Positions 33,006 through 39,767 of a stretch of DNA of 39,767 nt are shown in pieces; the stretch's first letter is position 1; the number at the start of each line of letters is the position of its first letter. The notes under the pieces were generated by a model that worked only from the letters and a program-made list of their open reading frames with translations, searched no databases and was not told where the DNA came from. This stretch comes from Lentisphaerota bacterium (lineage in GTDB: Bacteria; Verrucomicrobiota; Kiritimatiellia; RFP12; UBA1067), in assembly GCA_015061665.1 (NCBI GenBank), contig SUWC01000023.1:1-39767 (forward strand), written 5' to 3'. A program made the translations under genes and the position numbers.

Positions 33006-34724
33006 ATGAACGGACTAGTCCTGCTATCGATTGCAGTTGGCGTGTTTCTCGCCGGCTATTTTCTCTACGCTCGTCTGATCGAGCGCATTCTCGGGGTTGA
33101 CCCGGCAAGGCAGACCCCGGCGCACGCGAGAAGGGACGGCGTAGACTTCATACCCGCACACCCGACGGTCTTGTTCGGACACCATTTCGCGGCGATTGCG
33201 GGGGCCGGCCCTATTGTCGGACCGATCCTTGCCGCTGAGTTCGGTTGGGGCGCGGTTGCGCTTTGGATTATCCTCGGCTGCGTCTTCATCGGCGCGGCGC
33301 ACGACATGATTTCGCTGTTCCTCTCCATACGCCATGACGGAGAGTCCATCGGATCTGTGATCGGCACGATCCTCGGCCGGCCCGGCAAGGTGCTGTTCCT
33401 TCTCTTCTCCTGGTCTGCGCTCATTCTCGTCGTTGCGGAGTTCACGCGCCAGATAACGGGAACGTTCCTCGCCGATCCCGCGATTGCGACGGCGTCGCTC
33501 CTCTTCATCGCCGAGGCGATAGTGTTCGGGCTTTGCGTCAACAAGTTCAAGATGTCCGTTCTCTGGACGTCGCTCGTGTTTGTGCCGTTGATGTTCGCGT
33601 TTGTGTGGATCGGCAACGTCTATCCGCTCGACCTCGTGAAGCTCTTTGGGCTCACCCCCGAGACGACGGCTCTCGTCTGGACGGCGGTTTTGCTTGTCTA
33701 CTGCTTCTTTGCGTCGACGTGTCCCGTATGGATACTTCTCCAGCCGCGCGACTACCTCAATTCGTACCTCCTCTATGCGATGATGGCGCTCGGCTTCCTT
33801 GGCGTTATCGTCGCGCATCCGGTGATGCAGCTTCCCGCTTTCGCGGGCTTTTCGGTCCTTAAGCCGACGGGCGCGACAGACATGCTGTTCCCGTTCCTCT
33901 TCGTCACCGTCGCGTGCGGCGCCTGCTCGGGCTTCCATGCGCTCGTCGCGTCCGGAACAACGGCCAAGCAGCTTGGAAACGAGAAGTCGACGCGTCCCAT
34001 CGCATACGGCGGGATGCTGCTTGAAGGCGTCCTCGCGATAATCGCGCTCATCGGCGTGGCGGGGACGTACGGCGACAGCGCGGCGTACTTCAAGGACCTG
34101 ATGCCAGACGGACTCCATGCGCAGCCTGTGCCGCTCTTCGCCTCGACGCTCGCCGGGTTCTGCATCAAGGCGTTCTCTGCGGTCGGCATTCCAGTTGAGA
34201 TCGGCGCCAAGCTTGCGAAGAGCTTCATTCTGCTCTCCGTCTCCGCGTTCCTGATGACGACGGTTGACGCCGGAACTCGTCTTGCTCGCTTCAGCTGGCA
34301 AGAGCTTGTCGGAGGCGTTGCGAAGAAAGATGGACCTGTCGGCAAGGTCGCGTCGAACATGTACCTTGGCACGCTCCTCGTCTGCCTGCTTGCGGCAGGG
34401 CTGCTCATAAACAAGGAGGCGTCCGCACAGCTTTGGACGATCTTCGCAAGCGCGAACCAGCTCCTTGCCGCGCTGACGCTCCTTTCGGCGACGCTGTGGT
34501 TTGTCCGCAACAACAAGCCTTGCTGGTTCACTGCCATTCCGACGGCGCTTATGTTCTCGGTCTCCTCGTGGGCGCTTGGCGCGATATTCATGCAGAGCGT
34601 CAGCGGTGACAAGATCGACTTCGTCCGCATGGCCGCAAGCGGCTTCCTGCTGCTGCTGGCCGCCATCCTCGTGTGCTATGCCGTCCGCAGCGGCGCCAAG
34701 TCAATCTCTGGCAGCGGGAAATAG
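33006..34724 (+). CDS. cstA: CstA-family carbon starvation/pyruvate transporter
   Basis: The 572-residue membrane protein has about 15 hydrophobic helices and the CstA family landmarks: FGHHFAAIAGAGPIVGPILAAEFGWG, SRQ-like EFTRQITGTFL, CPVWILLQPRDYLNSYLLY and CGACSGFHALVASGTTAKQ. Family members import pyruvate or peptides during carbon limitation. It is shorter than E. coli CstA (about 700 residues), like many CstA proteins of anaerobes. ATG 33006 has GGAGG 7 nt upstream, better than the in-frame start inside murG. Confidence 0.92.
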   Translation: MNGLVLLSIAVGVFLAGYFLYARLIERILGVDPARQTPAHARRDGVDFIPAHPTVLFGHHFAAIAGAGPIVGPILAAEFGWGAVALWIILGCVFIGAAHDMISLFLSIRHDGESIGSVIGTILGRPGKVLFLLFSWSALILVVAEFTRQITGTFLADPAIATASLLFIAEAIVFGLCVNKFKMSVLWTSLVFVPLMFAFVWIGNVYPLDLVKLFGLTPETTALVWTAVLLVYCFFASTCPVWILLQPRDYLNSYLLYAMMALGFLGVIVAHPVMQLPAFAGFSVLKPTGATDMLFPFLFVTVACGACSGFHALVASGTTAKQLGNEKSTRPIAYGGMLLEGVLAIIALIGVAGTYGDSAAYFKDLMPDGLHAQPVPLFASTLAGFCIKAFSAVGIPVEIGAKLAKSFILLSVSAFLMTTVDAGTRLARFSWQELVGGVAKKDGPVGKVASNMYLGTLLVCLLAAGLLINKEASAQLWTIFASANQLLAALTLLSATLWFVRNNKPCWFTAIPTALMFSVSSWALGAIFMQSVSGDKIDFVRMAASGFLLLLAAILVCYAVRSGAKSISGSGK

Positions 34725-34726
34725 CG

Positions 34727-36358
34727 ATGCCCCGCCTGCGACACCTCCTTGCTGCGTTCGCGCTTGCATTCTTCGCGTTCTGCGCGGACGCCTCCGATGT
34801 CGCAGTCGTTGCGCACGAGGCGGGCTACTACACGTCGCTTGCCAACCACGTCTCGCGCTGGCTGAGGGGGCATTCGGTGGACGCGCCCGTATCGGATGCG
34901 TCCAATCTCGGGCGGACTCTTTCCGGCGCGAAGCTCGCTTTCCTCGTCGGCTTCAACGAGCCGACCGCGAAGGAGATGCGCGAGCTTTCCGCATTCCGCG
35001 CAAGGGGCGGAAAGCTTGTCGTTTTCTACTCGGCTTCGCCTGCGCTTGCGAGGCTGATGGGCGTAAAGGTCGTCGCCTACGCGACGGCGCAGTATCCAGG
35101 GCAGTGGAGCCGGATGGAATTCGTCCCAGGGGTAGGGCCGATGGGAACGCCATCTTCCATACTCCAGACCTCAACCGTCCTCCAGAGGTCTATTCCCGCG
35201 CCCGGATCCAATTCGCGGGTGATGGCAACGTGGTCCGACCGCAGCGGACGCTCCACGGGCGACGCGGCGTGGATTGCGTCCGACGCGGGCTACTGGATGA
35301 CGCACGTCCTTCTCGCGGACGGAGACGAGGCGCTGAAGGGGCAGCTTCTCGCCGCGATTGTCGGGCGCTGCGTGCCGGGTGCTTGGAGCTACGAGAGCTT
35401 CAGGGCCAAGGAGCTTGCGCGCCGGCGTTCGCTCGTCGCGTACGCAAAGGCGCAGAAGCCGCAGAAGGGCGAGATAAGGGCGGTCTGGGACCATTCGGGG
35501 TGCGGGCTCTATCCTGGCGACTGGCCCAGGACGATCAGGTTCCTCAAGGCTGCCAAGATAACGGACCTCTTCGTCAACGTCGCCGGAGCGGGGTTTGCGC
35601 ACTATCCGTCCGACGTCCTCCCGCGCTCGAAGACGTATGAACTGGAAGGCGACCAGCTCAGGGCCTGCCTTGACGCCGCCAAGGGGACGGGCATACGCGT
35701 CCACGCCTGGGTCCTCTGCTTCACGGCGACGCGCGCGACGCCTGCGAGGCTGGAGGAGTTCGCGCGGCGCGGATGGCGGCTGAAGTCGGTCGACGGCAGG
35801 CTCACGGAGTACCTTGATCCGTCGAACCCGGCGGTGCGCGACTACCTTCTCAGGGCGGTCGACGAAATACAGGCGAAGTACCGCGTGGGCGGCGTGCATC
35901 TCGACTTCGTCCGCTGGTACGAGCGCAGCAAGCGTCCGAAGAACGCGGCGGATGTCATATCGCGTTTTGTCGCGGACGCGAGGCGGCACGTGCGGCGTCC
36001 GGCGTGGTTCACGACGGCGGTTCTCGGGCGCTATCCGATATGCATCGAGTCCGTGGGACAGGACTGGGACAGCTGGATACGGTCCGGCACGGTGGACTAC
36101 GTCGTCCCGATGGACTACACCGAGAGCAACGCGCGTTTTGAGGAGTTCCTGACGCAGCATTCCGCGATAAAGGCGCATGCGCGCCGCACGATCGCCGGCA
36201 TCGGCGTTACGGCCAACGAGTCGCGCCTTGACGCAAAGCAGGTCATCGACCAGATTAACATAGCGCGCCGGCATGGACTTGCCGGAGTCGCGCTGTTCGA
36301 CCTCGACACGACCCTTGAGAAGCAGATAATCCCCTACCTCCGCCTCGGCCTCTGGTAG
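34727..36358 (+). CDS. Secreted GHL10/DUF187-type glycoside-hydrolase-like protein
   Basis: The 543-residue product has a signal peptide (about 1-23). An N-terminal alpha/beta domain (about 25-240, DVAVVAHEAGYYTSLANHV...) resembles a class I amidotransferase-like fold. A TIM-barrel of the glycosyl-hydrolase-like 10 family follows from about 247. Barrel landmarks are EIRAVWDHSG, ITDLFVNVAGAGFAHYPSDVLP, GIRVHAWVLCF, YLDPSNPAVRDYLLRAVDEI, VGGVHLDFVRWYER and VDYVVPMDYTESN. Family members act on cell-wall or extracellular glycans; the substrate is unknown. The ATG follows the cstA stop by 2 bp with a weak ribosome site. Its stop codon directly abuts the left end of the inverted-repeat element. Confidence 0.85.
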   Translation: MPRLRHLLAAFALAFFAFCADASDVAVVAHEAGYYTSLANHVSRWLRGHSVDAPVSDASNLGRTLSGAKLAFLVGFNEPTAKEMRELSAFRARGGKLVVFYSASPALARLMGVKVVAYATAQYPGQWSRMEFVPGVGPMGTPSSILQTSTVLQRSIPAPGSNSRVMATWSDRSGRSTGDAAWIASDAGYWMTHVLLADGDEALKGQLLAAIVGRCVPGAWSYESFRAKELARRRSLVAYAKAQKPQKGEIRAVWDHSGCGLYPGDWPRTIRFLKAAKITDLFVNVAGAGFAHYPSDVLPRSKTYELEGDQLRACLDAAKGTGIRVHAWVLCFTATRATPARLEEFARRGWRLKSVDGRLTEYLDPSNPAVRDYLLRAVDEIQAKYRVGGVHLDFVRWYERSKRPKNAADVISRFVADARRHVRRPAWFTTAVLGRYPICIESVGQDWDSWIRSGTVDYVVPMDYTESNARFEEFLTQHSAIKAHARRTIAGIGVTANESRLDAKQVIDQINIARRHGLAGVALFDLDTTLEKQIIPYLRLGLW

Positions 36359-36380
36359 TTGGAGGTTCCCCACTTTTTCT
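36359..36380 (+). repeat. Left terminal inverted repeat
   Basis: It begins TTGGAGGTTCCCCA and continues CTTTTTCT; it matches the right end in the opposite orientation at 20 of 22 positions. Confidence 0.8.
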
Positions 36381-36515
36381 GGCATGAAAACGGCCACACC
36401 CCAGTAAACAAAGGGTATACCTGTGCTGCGTAGTCACATGCCAAATTGTGGGCAATATCTGTTCTCTGGCGCTGACGCGCGCCATTCCAACCTTCGGTTT
36501 TCGGCAAGCCCCGCG

Positions 36516-36553
36516 ACACGAACCGGGCTACGCCCGACACGAATATACACGAA
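36516..36553 (-). repeat. Three phased ACACGAA / TTCGTGT motifs
   Basis: ACACGAA occurs at 36516-36522, 36537-36543 and 36547-36553, with start-to-start spacing of 21 and 10 bp, about two and one helical turns. A GGGC-TAC-GCCC hairpin separates the first two copies. The spacing would put all copies on one face of DNA, as protein-binding iterons are. Confidence 0.5.
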
Positions 36554-36680
36554 TTTTGGCTCTTCGTAAACAACTCTCCTACCATCCCATGTTCCGTCGC
36601 GAGATTCGCCTGCGCCGAAGGCGTCAGGTTGGCCGACGAGCGAAGCGAGGAGCTTTGCGAAGCAAAGTCGCAAGAGCCCG

Positions 36681-36869
36681 AGCGACGCAACCCCCTGAGA
36701 GCGACTGAGCTGTTGCTATCAAGGGGGTCCGTCGCTCCGCGACGGACATTCGCAGCGCTCGCGCAGAATCAGATAAATCGGGAGTGCGCGAGGGAAGGCG
36801 AATAGGAGTGACTTGGAAGTCGACTGTGACACGACCTTTCTAGGTCCGTCGCGGAGCGACGGACCCCCT
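36681..36869. repeat. REPIN-like palindrome cluster
   Basis: A perfect 26-bp inverted repeat spans 36722-36747 and 36844-36869. Each arm is itself a hairpin with 9-bp stems (GTCCGTCGC) around a TCC or GGA triloop. The 96-nt spacer contains another nested pair: 36748-36753 with 36798-36803 (ATTCGC/GCGAAT) and 36758-36765 with 36785-36792 (CTCGCGCA/TGCGCGAG). A third, degenerate copy of the arm (AGCGACGCAACCCCCT) lies at 36681-36696. Two REP-like hairpins in inverted orientation are the hallmark of REPINs. No RAYT transposase is present. Confidence 0.75.
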
Positions 36870-36997
36870 GCTAGTTTAGCCGTTCTTTCGACTGATCCAC
36901 GTCATTATTCCTGCTTGACCGCAAAGGCTGGACTCCGTGGCGAGAAGCCGGTTATGGACCGGGGAGGACCACGCACCGCAGCGCAGCGGAGGAAAGA

Positions 36998-37012
36998 TTC
37001 GGCGTAGCCGAA
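36998..37012. repeat. Triloop hairpin TTCGGC-GTA-GCCGAA
   Basis: A perfect 6-bp stem with a 3-nt loop. The same design recurs in the element: CTTTGC-GAA-GCAAAG at 36653-36667, CGCC-GAA-GGCG at 36613-36623 and the REP-like arms. Confidence 0.65.
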
Positions 37013-37103
37013 CCCGCAGGGCGCGCAAGCGTCTGCGCGAGAACATCAACCGTCGGAGTTTTTCCAAAACCGCGCAGGGGGTCGCAAAGGTTCGGCAGCC
37101 CAA

Positions 37104-37125
37104 AGTAAAATTGGGGAACCTCCAA
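37104..37125 (-). repeat. Right terminal inverted repeat
   Basis: It ends TGGGGAACCTCCAA on the + strand, the exact complement of the outer 14 bp at the left end. Confidence 0.8.
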
Positions 37126-37137
37126 TACGTCGCTTTA

Positions 37138-37167
37138 TTGACGTTTCTCCGACATAAATGGTAGAAT
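37138..37167 (+). promoter_or_regulatory. Promoter of the sigma factor-kinase pair
   Basis: TTGACG (37138-37143) and TAGAAT (37162-37167) are 18 nt apart, with TGG before the -10 (extended). An AGGA site (37173-37176) lies 7 nt before ATG 37184. The -35 starts 12 bp outside the right inverted repeat, so the element does not supply the promoter. Confidence 0.65.
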
Positions 37168-37183: not shown

Positions 37184-37792
37184 ATGCCAGTGGGGAAAAT
37201 ATCGTTTGTCAGTACGAGGCATACGCTCCTTGAGCGCATGTCTTGTGATTTGTCGCGTGAAAGCGAGATGGCCTGGATGCAGTTCTTTGAACTGTATCAG
37301 CCTGTCATGCTGAAATATGCCGAGCTTTTCTGTGACAGATCGCAGTCGGATGACATTGTCCAGAAGGTGCTTGTTAAACTAGTCGCCGTTCTTCGTGGCG
37401 GACGCTATGTCAGACGTCCAGATGTAAAGTTTCGGTCCTATCTCATGACACTCATAAGGAACGAGTTCATAGACTGGCGCAGGCATGAAAGCGCGCGCAT
37501 TTGCGGAGGCGGCGGTCTGGATAGCGCTGCACACGCCGTGACAAATGTCACTGCTGCGGATTTCATCGACGCGGAATGGCGCGCTGCGCGCAGGTTCGCT
37601 GCTATCGAGCATGTCCTTTCTCAGACCGCCATGCCGGACCTGATGCGCCGGGCGTACAGGATGCATGTGGTCGAGGGACGTCCAGCCGGCGAGGTGGCCG
37701 CGGCTCTCGGCGTCCGGAAAAACTACGTGATTCTGGCGAAGTCGCGCATTTCCAGGAGAATTGCCTCGGCGGAGGCGATTTATGGAGACTGA
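37184..37792 (+). CDS. ECF-type RNA polymerase sigma factor
   Basis: The 202-residue protein has a sigma-2 region at about 28-105. Helix phrases there are MAWMQFFELYQPVMLKYAELFC, SDDIVQKVLVKLVAVL for promoter melting and -10 contact, and FRSYLMTLIRNEFIDWRRHE. A sigma-4 helix-turn-helix lies at about 155-202 (RRAYRMHVVEGRPAGEVAAALGVRKNYVILAKSRI). There is no sigma-3 domain, so it belongs to the small ECF-like sigma factors. It redirects RNA polymerase to an unknown regulon. The Ser/Thr kinase gene begins 2 nt after its stop, which suggests that the kinase controls it, as known for some ECF sigma factors paired with kinases. Codon use in its first part is less GC-rich than in its neighbours. 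Confidence 0.88.
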   Translation: MPVGKISFVSTRHTLLERMSCDLSRESEMAWMQFFELYQPVMLKYAELFCDRSQSDDIVQKVLVKLVAVLRGGRYVRRPDVKFRSYLMTLIRNEFIDWRRHESARICGGGGLDSAAHAVTNVTAADFIDAEWRAARRFAAIEHVLSQTAMPDLMRRAYRMHVVEGRPAGEVAAALGVRKNYVILAKSRISRRIASAEAIYGD

Positions 37793-37794
37793 CA

Positions 37795-39767
37795 ATGGAA
37801 GAGATTCTTGAAGAAGGAACGGTTCTCGGCGGTTATCGCATCATCCGCAGCCTCGGAAGCGGCGGGATGGGGCGCGTCTATGAAGCGGAGCACATTGCGC
37901 TCGGAGTGCGTCGGGCGCTCAAGGTGTTCTCGTCCAGCTCGCGGCACGCGGAGGAGCTCGCTTCCGGCTTTGTGGCGGAGGGACGCGTTCTCGCGAATCT
38001 CGCGCACGACAGGGTCGTGCGGGTCCACGACCTGGTGGTGGACGGCAAGACGGGTCGTCCGTATTTCGCCATGGACCTGGTGCTTTCGCCGGACGGAACG
38101 CCTCGGACGCTTGAGGACGAGCGCAGGTCCGGACTGGACGAGGAGCGCGCTGCGGACGTGTTCGCCGACATCTGCGAAGGGCTGGACTACATACATTCGC
38201 GCGGGCTGGTCCACTGCGACCTGAAGCTCGAGAACATGCTTGTCGGTCCTGACGGACACGTCGTCATATCCGATTTCGGCATATCACGCATTTTCGGCGA
38301 AGACCTGCACGGCAAGGTGAGTCCGGCCGGCGGGAAGACTGCGGACCGCGGCGTTGTCCTTGGCGGGACGCCGCGCTACATCGCGCCAGAACTGCTGGCG
38401 GACACCGGCGCGGAGCCGGGGCCCGAATCGGACGCATGGTCGCTCGGCGTCATGATGTTCAGGCTGCTGACCGGCTTCTGGTTCGACGATGCGGTGCGCG
38501 AGAAGTGCCTTGCGCTTCTTCGCGAGTTCGACATGCCGTGGCGCGAAGTCGTTGCGGGGCTCTGCTCCGCCGATCCGAAGTCGCGCATGCCCAATGGAGG
38601 GCTCACGGCCTGGGCAAGGCTTCTGCGCGGCGCATCCCGCCGCCGCCGTGCAGGGCTTGCGACGGCTTGCGCCGCCGTTTCCGCCGCAGCGCTTGCGGCC
38701 GCCGCGTATTTTGCTCTGCCGCGAAATGACTCGTCCGTCGGCTGCACGCTGCGTCCCGACTCCCCGAACTGGAGCGACTGGCGCGCCGGCAGGTTCGGAC
38801 GACTGGACGCGACGCTGCTCGACGGACTGGGGAAGGCAGATGAAGACCTTGCGTTTGTGCTGGGGCTTTCCGTGGAACGCCGCGCCTCCTATCTATGTTA
38901 CAGGAAGCGTTGGCGGGACGGGCTTCTGGAGAGGATGGAGTCACTTGTCGCCGCGGAAGCTGCGGCGGAAGGAACGACGGGGCTCAGCCCGGCGCAGGCG
39001 TTTGTCGTCGCCGGCGAGATTTACCGCGAGCGGCGTGCGCAGGCGTCGCACTACGCCGAGTTCCCGGATGACGTCGACCGGCTCCTGCTGCTGGCCAGGC
39101 GTTTCATAGCCGACGCAACGAGGCGCCAGATACATCCCGAGAAGCGCTACGAGGTGGTCAATCCCGAATGGGCGTACGAAATCATCGAGGACGAGATGCC
39201 GTTCGGGAGGCTTGACGGACGGCGAGTCGGGGCGGGCGACACGGATTTCCAGCGCGATGCGGACGTATGGATCATGCGCATGGTCCGCGGCGCTACCCTT
39301 GCGGCGGAGGGTTCCCGCGCTCTTGCCGGACGCGGACGGAACGCGCCGGCCGAGGCTCTGGCGGCGCACGAGGAGAAATGCTCTCTTGCGCGGCGGAACT
39401 TCTACGAGGCCTATGCGATGAAGCCGCGGCGGTATGCGGCCGCCATGCGGATGATCTGCGTGTCGCATGACGATATTTCTGAATGCCGCCGCTGGTTCGA
39501 GACCTGCCAGGGTTTCTGTTTCGACGACTTCTCTGCCTGGATGAACTATTCACACTGCCTCGCGCTTATGCCTGACGGAAGGGATCGGCTGGCGCGTCTG
39601 ATGGACGCGGCGCTTGAGACGGGCCGCTACGACACCTGGGTTCCGGCCTTCTATGTTCTCGTCAGGTGGCGGATATACGCGAAATACTGCGGCACGGAGA
39701 GTCCGCTCCGCGCGGATGCGCGCGCATGGGCTTACGAAGATGCCGCAGTGCGTGCGCGGACGCTGGA
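37795..39767 (+). CDS. Membrane-anchored non-RD Ser/Thr protein kinase (3' end outside window)
   Basis: The frame stays open from ATG 37795 to the window edge (657 codons seen). The Hanks-type kinase domain (about 14-280) has the G-loop GSGGMGRVYEAEH, K43 (ALKVF), E62, the catalytic loop HCDLKLENML with D142 and N147, DFG at 160-162 and APE at 197-199. The usual HRD Arg is Cys, so it is a non-RD kinase that should not need activation-loop phosphorylation. A basic stretch (SRRRR) and one membrane helix (about 287-308) follow, then an extracytoplasmic helical region of at least 350 residues without a recognised fold. GGAG lies 7 nt before the ATG. It is paired with the sigma factor gene, 2 nt apart. 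Because the protein is incomplete, further domains are unknown. Confidence 0.92.
   Translation, partial: MEEILEEGTVLGGYRIIRSLGSGGMGRVYEAEHIALGVRRALKVFSSSSRHAEELASGFVAEGRVLANLAHDRVVRVHDLVVDGKTGRPYFAMDLVLSPDGTPRTLEDERRSGLDEERAADVFADICEGLDYIHSRGLVHCDLKLENMLVGPDGHVVISDFGISRIFGEDLHGKVSPAGGKTADRGVVLGGTPRYIAPELLADTGAEPGPESDAWSLGVMMFRLLTGFWFDDAVREKCLALLREFDMPWREVVAGLCSADPKSRMPNGGLTAWARLLRGASRRRRAGLATACAAVSAAALAAAAYFALPRNDSSVGCTLRPDSPNWSDWRAGRFGRLDATLLDGLGKADEDLAFVLGLSVERRASYLCYRKRWRDGLLERMESLVAAEAAAEGTTGLSPAQAFVVAGEIYRERRAQASHYAEFPDDVDRLLLLARRFIADATRRQIHPEKRYEVVNPEWAYEIIEDEMPFGRLDGRRVGAGDTDFQRDADVWIMRMVRGATLAAEGSRALAGRGRNAPAEALAAHEEKCSLARRNFYEAYAMKPRRYAAAMRMICVSHDDISECRRWFETCQGFCFDDFSAWMNYSHCLALMPDGRDRLARLMDAALETGRYDTWVPAFYVLVRWRIYAKYCGTESPLRADARAWAYEDAAVRARTL

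Follow-up and report, generated by a model that had tools for sequence, protein, structure and literature searches.

The DNA analysed here (the window, 39,767 nucleotides) is contig C56 of a 3.44-Mb MAG that comprises 177 contigs and is 92 % complete. Within it, a 767-bp MITE lies between a GHL10 glycosyl-hydrolase-like gene, whose stop codon TAG (36356–36358) directly abuts the left end of the element, and a predicted promoter, in which 18 bp separate TTGACG from TAGAAT and which precedes a sigma factor gene with its ATG at 37184 (Table 1). This location between a stop codon and a promoter agrees with a preliminary description of the locus. Directly 3′ of the sigma factor gene follows a protein-kinase-like gene, and the pair (window 37184–39765) recurs in relatives (L057–L061). 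The host lineage is suggested by relatives of the GHL10 gene, which are labelled Kiritimatiellae, Kiritimatiellia, Verrucomicrobia, Lentisphaerae or simply uncultured bacterium; ruminant-gut sample names are frequent among them.

Table 1. Features of the element and its surroundings (window coordinates).
Feature	Position	Strand	Basis or remark
GHL10 glycosyl-hydrolase-like gene upstream, reaching as far as the element	34673..36358	+	Start codon uncertain
Whole element, 767-bp composite MITE copy	36359..37125	.	TIRs, sharp boundary, own-genome matches
Left terminal inverted repeat	36359..36380	+	Recurs elsewhere beside unrelated flanks
Conserved left end, 58 bp	36359..36416	+	Comparison with other copies and IS L252
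Middle, mosaic of other dispersed repeats	36417..37036	.	620 bp vs. 238 bp in the 385-bp form (L175)
REP-type palindrome, first of inverted pair	36722..36747	-	
REP-type palindrome, second of inverted pair, BIME-like	36844..36869	+	
GC-rich short module	36973..37036	.	Shared with the 450-bp copy of contig C7
Conserved right end, 89 bp	37037..37125	+	Comparison with other copies
Right terminal inverted repeat, promoter-facing end	37104..37125	-	
−35-like TTGACG, presumed target promoter, outside the element	37138..37143	+	Starts 13 bp from element end
−10-like TAGAAT with TG extension, outside the element	37162..37167	+	Starts 37 bp from element end
Sigma factor gene (Sigma70_r2) behind the promoter	37184..37792	+	

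The two inverted arms pair at 20 of 22 positions with the outer 14 identical, as had been noted from the letters, and they constitute the sole arm pair of at least 20/22 at a span of 300–1500 bp within the window, where 20 first-order Markov resamplings of the window yielded 0 such pairs. The element had furthermore been called gene-free, which is consistent with six ORFs lying wholly or largely inside it, none of which has a Pfam match above the curated cut-off (the best being a single sub-threshold match to PRP3, E 0.0077). An RNA family was considered and dismissed, the only match being far below the gathering score.

Copies, target duplications and a mosaic interior

A search of the 767 bp against the own genome gave 105 full or partial matches, itself included, and the TIR pattern with at most one mismatch occurs there 18 times (control 0). 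Beyond this genome, the pattern with at most two mismatches was found in 33 of 61 genomes of the genus, the control pattern giving 5 matches in all, and the exact TIR in 33 of 161 genomes of the order, belonging to 4 of 33 genera (control 0); among IMG/VR viral contigs there were 0 exact TIR matches. The outer sequence varies between copies, and the boundary at TTGGAGG is sharp. So many copies rule out a single-copy conserved intergenic structure. As several contigs (L179 and L182–L184 in G059 and G057, L340 and L343 in G121) begin about 130–141 bp inside an element end, as in assembly breaks at long identical copies, the true copy numbers are probably higher than those counted.

Exact target duplications of 9–10 bp flank 6 of the 12 complete short copies (280–767 bp), and crossed flank pairs share a repeat of at least 8 bp in 0 of 156 cases. 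No duplication was found at the other six, namely the window copy, those on C7 and C176, two in G008 and one in G004; by eye, the C7 flanks show an imperfect duplication (GGTCTGTA/GGTCTATA). Four of the 12 copies, from three genomes, represent a 384–386 bp form that can be aligned end to end and that is shorter than the window copy; three of these four have target duplications. The family thus displays terminal inverted repeats, copies with unrelated flanks, no coding capacity, and ends in common with an autonomous element (its autonomy being deduced from an intact frame; see below), and we regard 36359–37125 as a MITE. The suggestion of a MITE family of this lineage is supported by the recurring ends, the duplications in relatives and the partner transposase, and no earlier description of the family was found within the open-access literature searched. 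A single copy conserved in the same place had been named as an outcome that would speak against mobility; instead, many copies exist, and the nearest relative of the sigma factor gene (72 %, G044) has a different upstream gene and no match to the element in the 1.5 kb upstream. Among 35 relatives of the GHL10 gene fetched in search of an empty site, none carries the sigma factor gene within the fetched stretch, some stretches ending soon after GHL10.

Two arrangements of ends were seen in passing. In G044 (L178/L144, C10:16384–16429), two TIR ends adjoin back to back, separated by only 8 bp, as would be seen after insertion of one element at the very edge of another. At a TIR end of three genomes (L152, L154, L329), outer flank and promoter are almost identical, which may reflect an old shared insertion, transfer or mis-binning.

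Compared with the 385-bp form, the window copy retains on its left side 58 bp, which are 98 % identical to MITEs from other genomes (L175 and L177), and on its right side 89 bp, which are 100 % identical to the MITE of G074 (L175). What lies between had been described as palindrome-rich, and rightly so, since it contains perfectly complementary arms of 26 bp; missed at that stage was that much of this interior consists of REP-type palindromes and GC-rich modules. The REP palindrome has 29 copies in the own genome (control 0), five of which surround a Y1_Tnp (RAYT) gene on contig C168, two before and three behind it, with one over the gene end. Within the element, the likeness to such RAYT-flanking repeats concerns the interior only. 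At this locus (L282, G000:C168), ORF 1129–1836 is the RAYT-type Y1_Tnp gene, and the palindrome GTCCGTCGCGGAGCGACGGAC occurs five times around it, several times followed by CCCCCTGTAG. As in REP/BIME–RAYT systems, the interior palindromes form inverted pairs and cluster around a Y1_Tnp gene (PMC3733652), but here the REPs are only part of the element, and the GTAG-like tag near the RAYT gene is, by eye, not intact in the window pair.

The GC-rich part likewise recurs, element positions 615–767 matching the 450-bp C7 copy at 97 %. At the TA of the motif GCGGTAGCG, the L170 and C7 copies differ in the GC-rich module that they contain; inside L170 (457 bp) and L124 (450 bp), the modules at this place measure about 65–75 bp, and one of them resembles, by eye, the module at element positions 235–326, which is matched in many genomes of the genus.

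The partner IS and its relatives

A PF01609 search of 12 genomes returned a match at G059:C107:218–961, near a TIR at 1347–1365. The corresponding frame, 401 aa long and cut by the contig start, reaches 39 bits for DDE_Tnp_1 (PF01609) against a cut-off of 23 bits; with it as query, transposase matches were obtained in 44 of 114 genomes of the family, and matches at E 1e-20 in 42 of 345 genomes of the class. A complete IS of 1598 bp in G133 (L252) has both TIRs, and no target duplication was found at it. A transposase gene with matching ends, which the preliminary description had proposed as the means of identifying the partner, hence exists in relatives. In contrast, the own MAG (92 % complete, 177 contigs) yielded no transposase of the clade in the family and class searches, so the window copy is probably a relic and now immobile. 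Relatives on plasmids and phages were limited to 22–28 % identity (four plasmid records and one phage record), and no meaningful relatives by sequence were found in the PDB.

Other candidates were set aside. The interval C6:24381–26148 (1768 bp, its second end with 4 mismatches) was considered as an autonomous IS, its large frames being taken for ordinary genes from the letters alone, and of ten frames translated beside solitary ends, those at G059:C107 and G021:C101 overlap a transposase, the rest resembling host genes or wrong frames by eye.

The left ends of five full-length MITEs (L170, L174–L177) match IS L252 at 85–92 % over 92–95 bp, and the window left end matches the transposase-3′ end of this IS at 89 % over 57 bp. 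The transposase-5′ end is the counterpart of the MITE right end, as can be followed via an intermediate, L172 (665 bp, G004), an IS with internal deletions in which a transposase fragment is kept: the window right end is 74 % identical to the right end of L172 over 61 bp, and the L172 end is 86 % identical to the transposase-5′ end of L252 over 35 bp.

The IS4 family is defined by D(60–110)D(100–150)E, by Y(2)R(3)E(6)K and by the length of its duplication (PMC2266710). In one protein (P0002), D76, D165 and E289 form D(88)D(123)E, within the range of the family; a complete YREK motif, Y(2)R(3)E(6)K, was present in all 14 loci tested (picked from 30 fetched), and the duplication of about one helix turn is matched by the 9–10 bp found in 6 of the 12 MITE copies and, by eye, by 10 bp at L264, a member of a sister IS. 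DDE_Tnp_1, a single transposase ORF and a length of 1.6 kb complete the likeness to the family (PMC2266710). However, the NCBIfam IS4 models score far below their cut-offs (40.6 vs. 250 and 40.8 vs. 160), and the terminal TTGGAG/CTGGAG agrees at most in the first two bases with the ends given for IS4 subgroups (IS10 CT, ISPepr1 YT; PMC2266710). Because the NCBIfam match is weak, the partner is called IS4-type on the strength of its motifs, without a named subgroup. Matches at E 0.1 included no Mutator-type transposase model but DDE_Tnp_1 and IS4/IS701 models instead.

Promoter spacing at the right ends

The promoter beside the window copy turned out to be no isolated neighbour: promoter adjacency, with the right end facing the promoter, is a property of the element family, which the preliminary description had missed. 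In a first look with a two-box motif, 14 of 37 right ends were positive, as compared to 0 of 33 left ends, 8 of 17 untyped ends and 15 of 2000 random stretches. A simpler one-box motif, applied to more ends as a follow-up test after the motif had been noticed, was TATAAT with at most one mismatch starting 33–40 bp outside the end. It was found at 51 of 69 right ends vs. 2 of 63 left ends, at 17 of 29 untyped ends, and in 25 of 5000 random window stretches, the count covering ends in fetched loci with an outer flank of at least 60 nt and at most two TIR mismatches (161 distinct flanks), excluding by choice at least nine ends that have no more than one mismatch (five of G043 and four of G134), including a minority of the known two-mismatch ends, and typing ends as right or left by inner sequence alone, with the reference ends as members of the set. 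Removal of near-duplicate flanks left 50/68 right, 2/63 left and 15/27 untyped ends (Fisher 2e-18), and the ends fetched only after the first look gave 28/37, 1/30 and 7/10, respectively. In the own genome, the −10 motif stands at 8 of 9 right, 0 of 7 left and 3 of 4 untyped ends.

The spacing is narrow. After removal of near-duplicates, the motif starts at 36–38 bp in 59 of 65 positive right or untyped flanks; the TG of an extended −10 box is likewise present in 59, and a TTG precedes the box at a spacer of 17–18 bp in 38. Over 46 flanks, which were preselected to 33–40 bp, the distance from the element end to the −10 box has an SD of 0.93, as compared to an SD of 31 for the distance from the −10 box to the ATG. 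Given this wide variation in the distance to the first ATG frame, it is the spacing from the element that is fixed. The window copy fits the pattern, and copies with a perfect duplication show the promoter motif at 5 of 6 right ends, the exception (L168) having TAGACT at the −10 place. The strict motif is absent from 18 of 69 right ends, including those of the complete copies L013 (= C7) and L137 (= G008). Throughout, the promoters are sequence predictions.

A sister IS (TIR CTGGAGTTTACCCA), whose transposase shares 46–49 % protein identity with that of the partner, presents the same asymmetry: the −10 motif was found at 10 of 13 transposase-5′ ends, 0 of 13 transposase-3′ ends and 11 of 14 untyped ends (40 flanks, from 30 loci among the matches listed plus earlier loci). 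Among more distant relatives (35–53 % aa identity), each seen as single insertions, the strict motif was not found at the expected position next to the 5′ end, one of them (L402) being promoter-like by eye.

Proposed target choice, rival readings and implications

We put the probability at about 0.86 that the element is a non-autonomous, MITE-type derivative of an IS4-type IS of Kiritimatiellae-like bacteria that was inserted upstream of promoters by target choice. The DDE transposase of the IS would act on the TTGGAGGTTCCCCA ends, a reaction presumed from the ends, duplications and partner established for the family, and would insert the element, with a target duplication of 9–10 bp, such that its right (transposase-5′) end points towards a sigma70-like promoter and lies about 12–13 bp upstream of the −35 box. 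The boundary of the element is fixed by the target duplications, which assigns the promoter to the target; for a duplication of 9 bp, the site that was struck lies just upstream of the −35 box. Fixed spacing and orientation are established statistically, and from them we infer target choice, which may be achieved by contact with RNA polymerase holoenzyme or with promoter DNA. The window copy itself is presumably old or rearranged, its promoter spacing having been kept and its duplication being absent. Its middle appears to have given way to REP-type palindromes along with other modules, and the exact left end beside an unrelated flank would be accounted for if two copies had recombined or if part of the left flank had been deleted.

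It might be argued that no target choice is needed, as the IS could insert anywhere while selection retains those insertions that spare a promoter. Prokaryotic MITEs are indeed normally intergenic (PMC10969869), and the downstream genes are probably needed, yet such selection predicts broad distances and both orientations, where a peak of about ±1 bp at one end is observed, and the spacing is already evident in 5 of 6 copies with perfect duplications. As a peak of about 1 bp together with a single orientation is not expected from selection against broken promoters alone, these data favour target choice, with the two ends treated unequally, and we consider selection as the only cause very improbable. 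Slightly better placed, although still improbable, is the possibility that the right end is itself a regulatory part, for example, an UP-like sequence or an activator site, so that insertions in the right phase were kept as helpful to the gene. The element end falls at about −48 relative to the presumed start, which is where a proximal UP element lies, and an A-rich stretch is located inside the right end. However, this benefit would need to apply to dozens of different flanks across several genera, to IS and MITE alike, and even to the sister IS with its other terminal sequence; it would, moreover, be compatible with target choice. Scarcely credible, finally, is that a RAYT spread the 767-bp unit as what would be, for the most part, a REP/BIME cluster, with the TIRs being incidental. 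The interior REP palindromes do equal those around the RAYT gene of C168, but 385-bp copies with the TIRs do without these REPs, three of four having duplications, the TIR element has a DDE partner of its own, and REPs occur on contigs on which no TIR was found. For the element family, this reading is already contradicted.

Target choice of the proposed kind has precedents in another transposase superfamily. TnGBS, ISLre2 (p-MULT 3) and part of ISKra4 (p-MULT 4) insert at a fixed distance upstream of sigmaA promoters; in p-MULT 3 one end faces the promoter, which has been ascribed to unequal inverted repeats, and for TnGBS and related IS, the distance is 15–17 bp upstream of the −35 box, contact with RNA polymerase having been proposed (PMC3942029). 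The present element shares with these members of the Mutator superfamily the oriented insertion at a fixed distance upstream of promoters but differs in its transposase superfamily and in its distance from the −35 box (about 12–13 bp vs. 15–17 bp; PMC3942029). It works like the Mutator-type promoter targeters without being a member. As to the IS4 family, oriented insertion upstream of promoters is not described in the main text of its account, in which the word promoter occurs 0 times (PMC2266710), and within the open-access literature searched no fixed-distance promoter targeting by an IS4-type element was found; what the available text of PMC6382973, PMC8024623 and PMC8944449 describes is the insertion of IS or MITEs upstream of genes, promoters carried within elements, or the location of IS5 upstream of promoters.

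Bacterial MITEs such as MITEAba12, which has its TIR in common with ISAba12 and 9-bp duplications in 40 % of its copies (PMC6382973), resemble the present family in being short and gene-free, with TIRs shared with an IS and duplications at part of the copies (PMC6382973, PMC10969869). By contrast, the available text on MITEAba12 (PMC6382973) reports no orientation preference and places promoters inside the MITE, whereas in the present family the promoter is external and its distance fixed. The window copy, a 767-bp composite, also differs from these MITEs.

Oriented insertion upstream of promoters has been called a unique specificity and tied to Mutator-type transposases (PMC3942029). We see even odds for a broader proposal, namely that promoter targeting arose independently in an IS4-type transposase, probably through docking on sigma70 holoenzyme or promoter DNA and discrimination between its two ends, so that MITEs were placed before many promoters across a bacterial family and can become insulators or regulatory cassettes. 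Tn5 and Tn10 belong to the IS4 group, the cut-and-paste chemistry of which is well studied. Promoter targeting by an IS4-type element would thus make the question of how a DDE transposase finds promoters testable in a tractable system, and the non-coding elements would serve as markers of promoters in gut bacteria that are uncultured.
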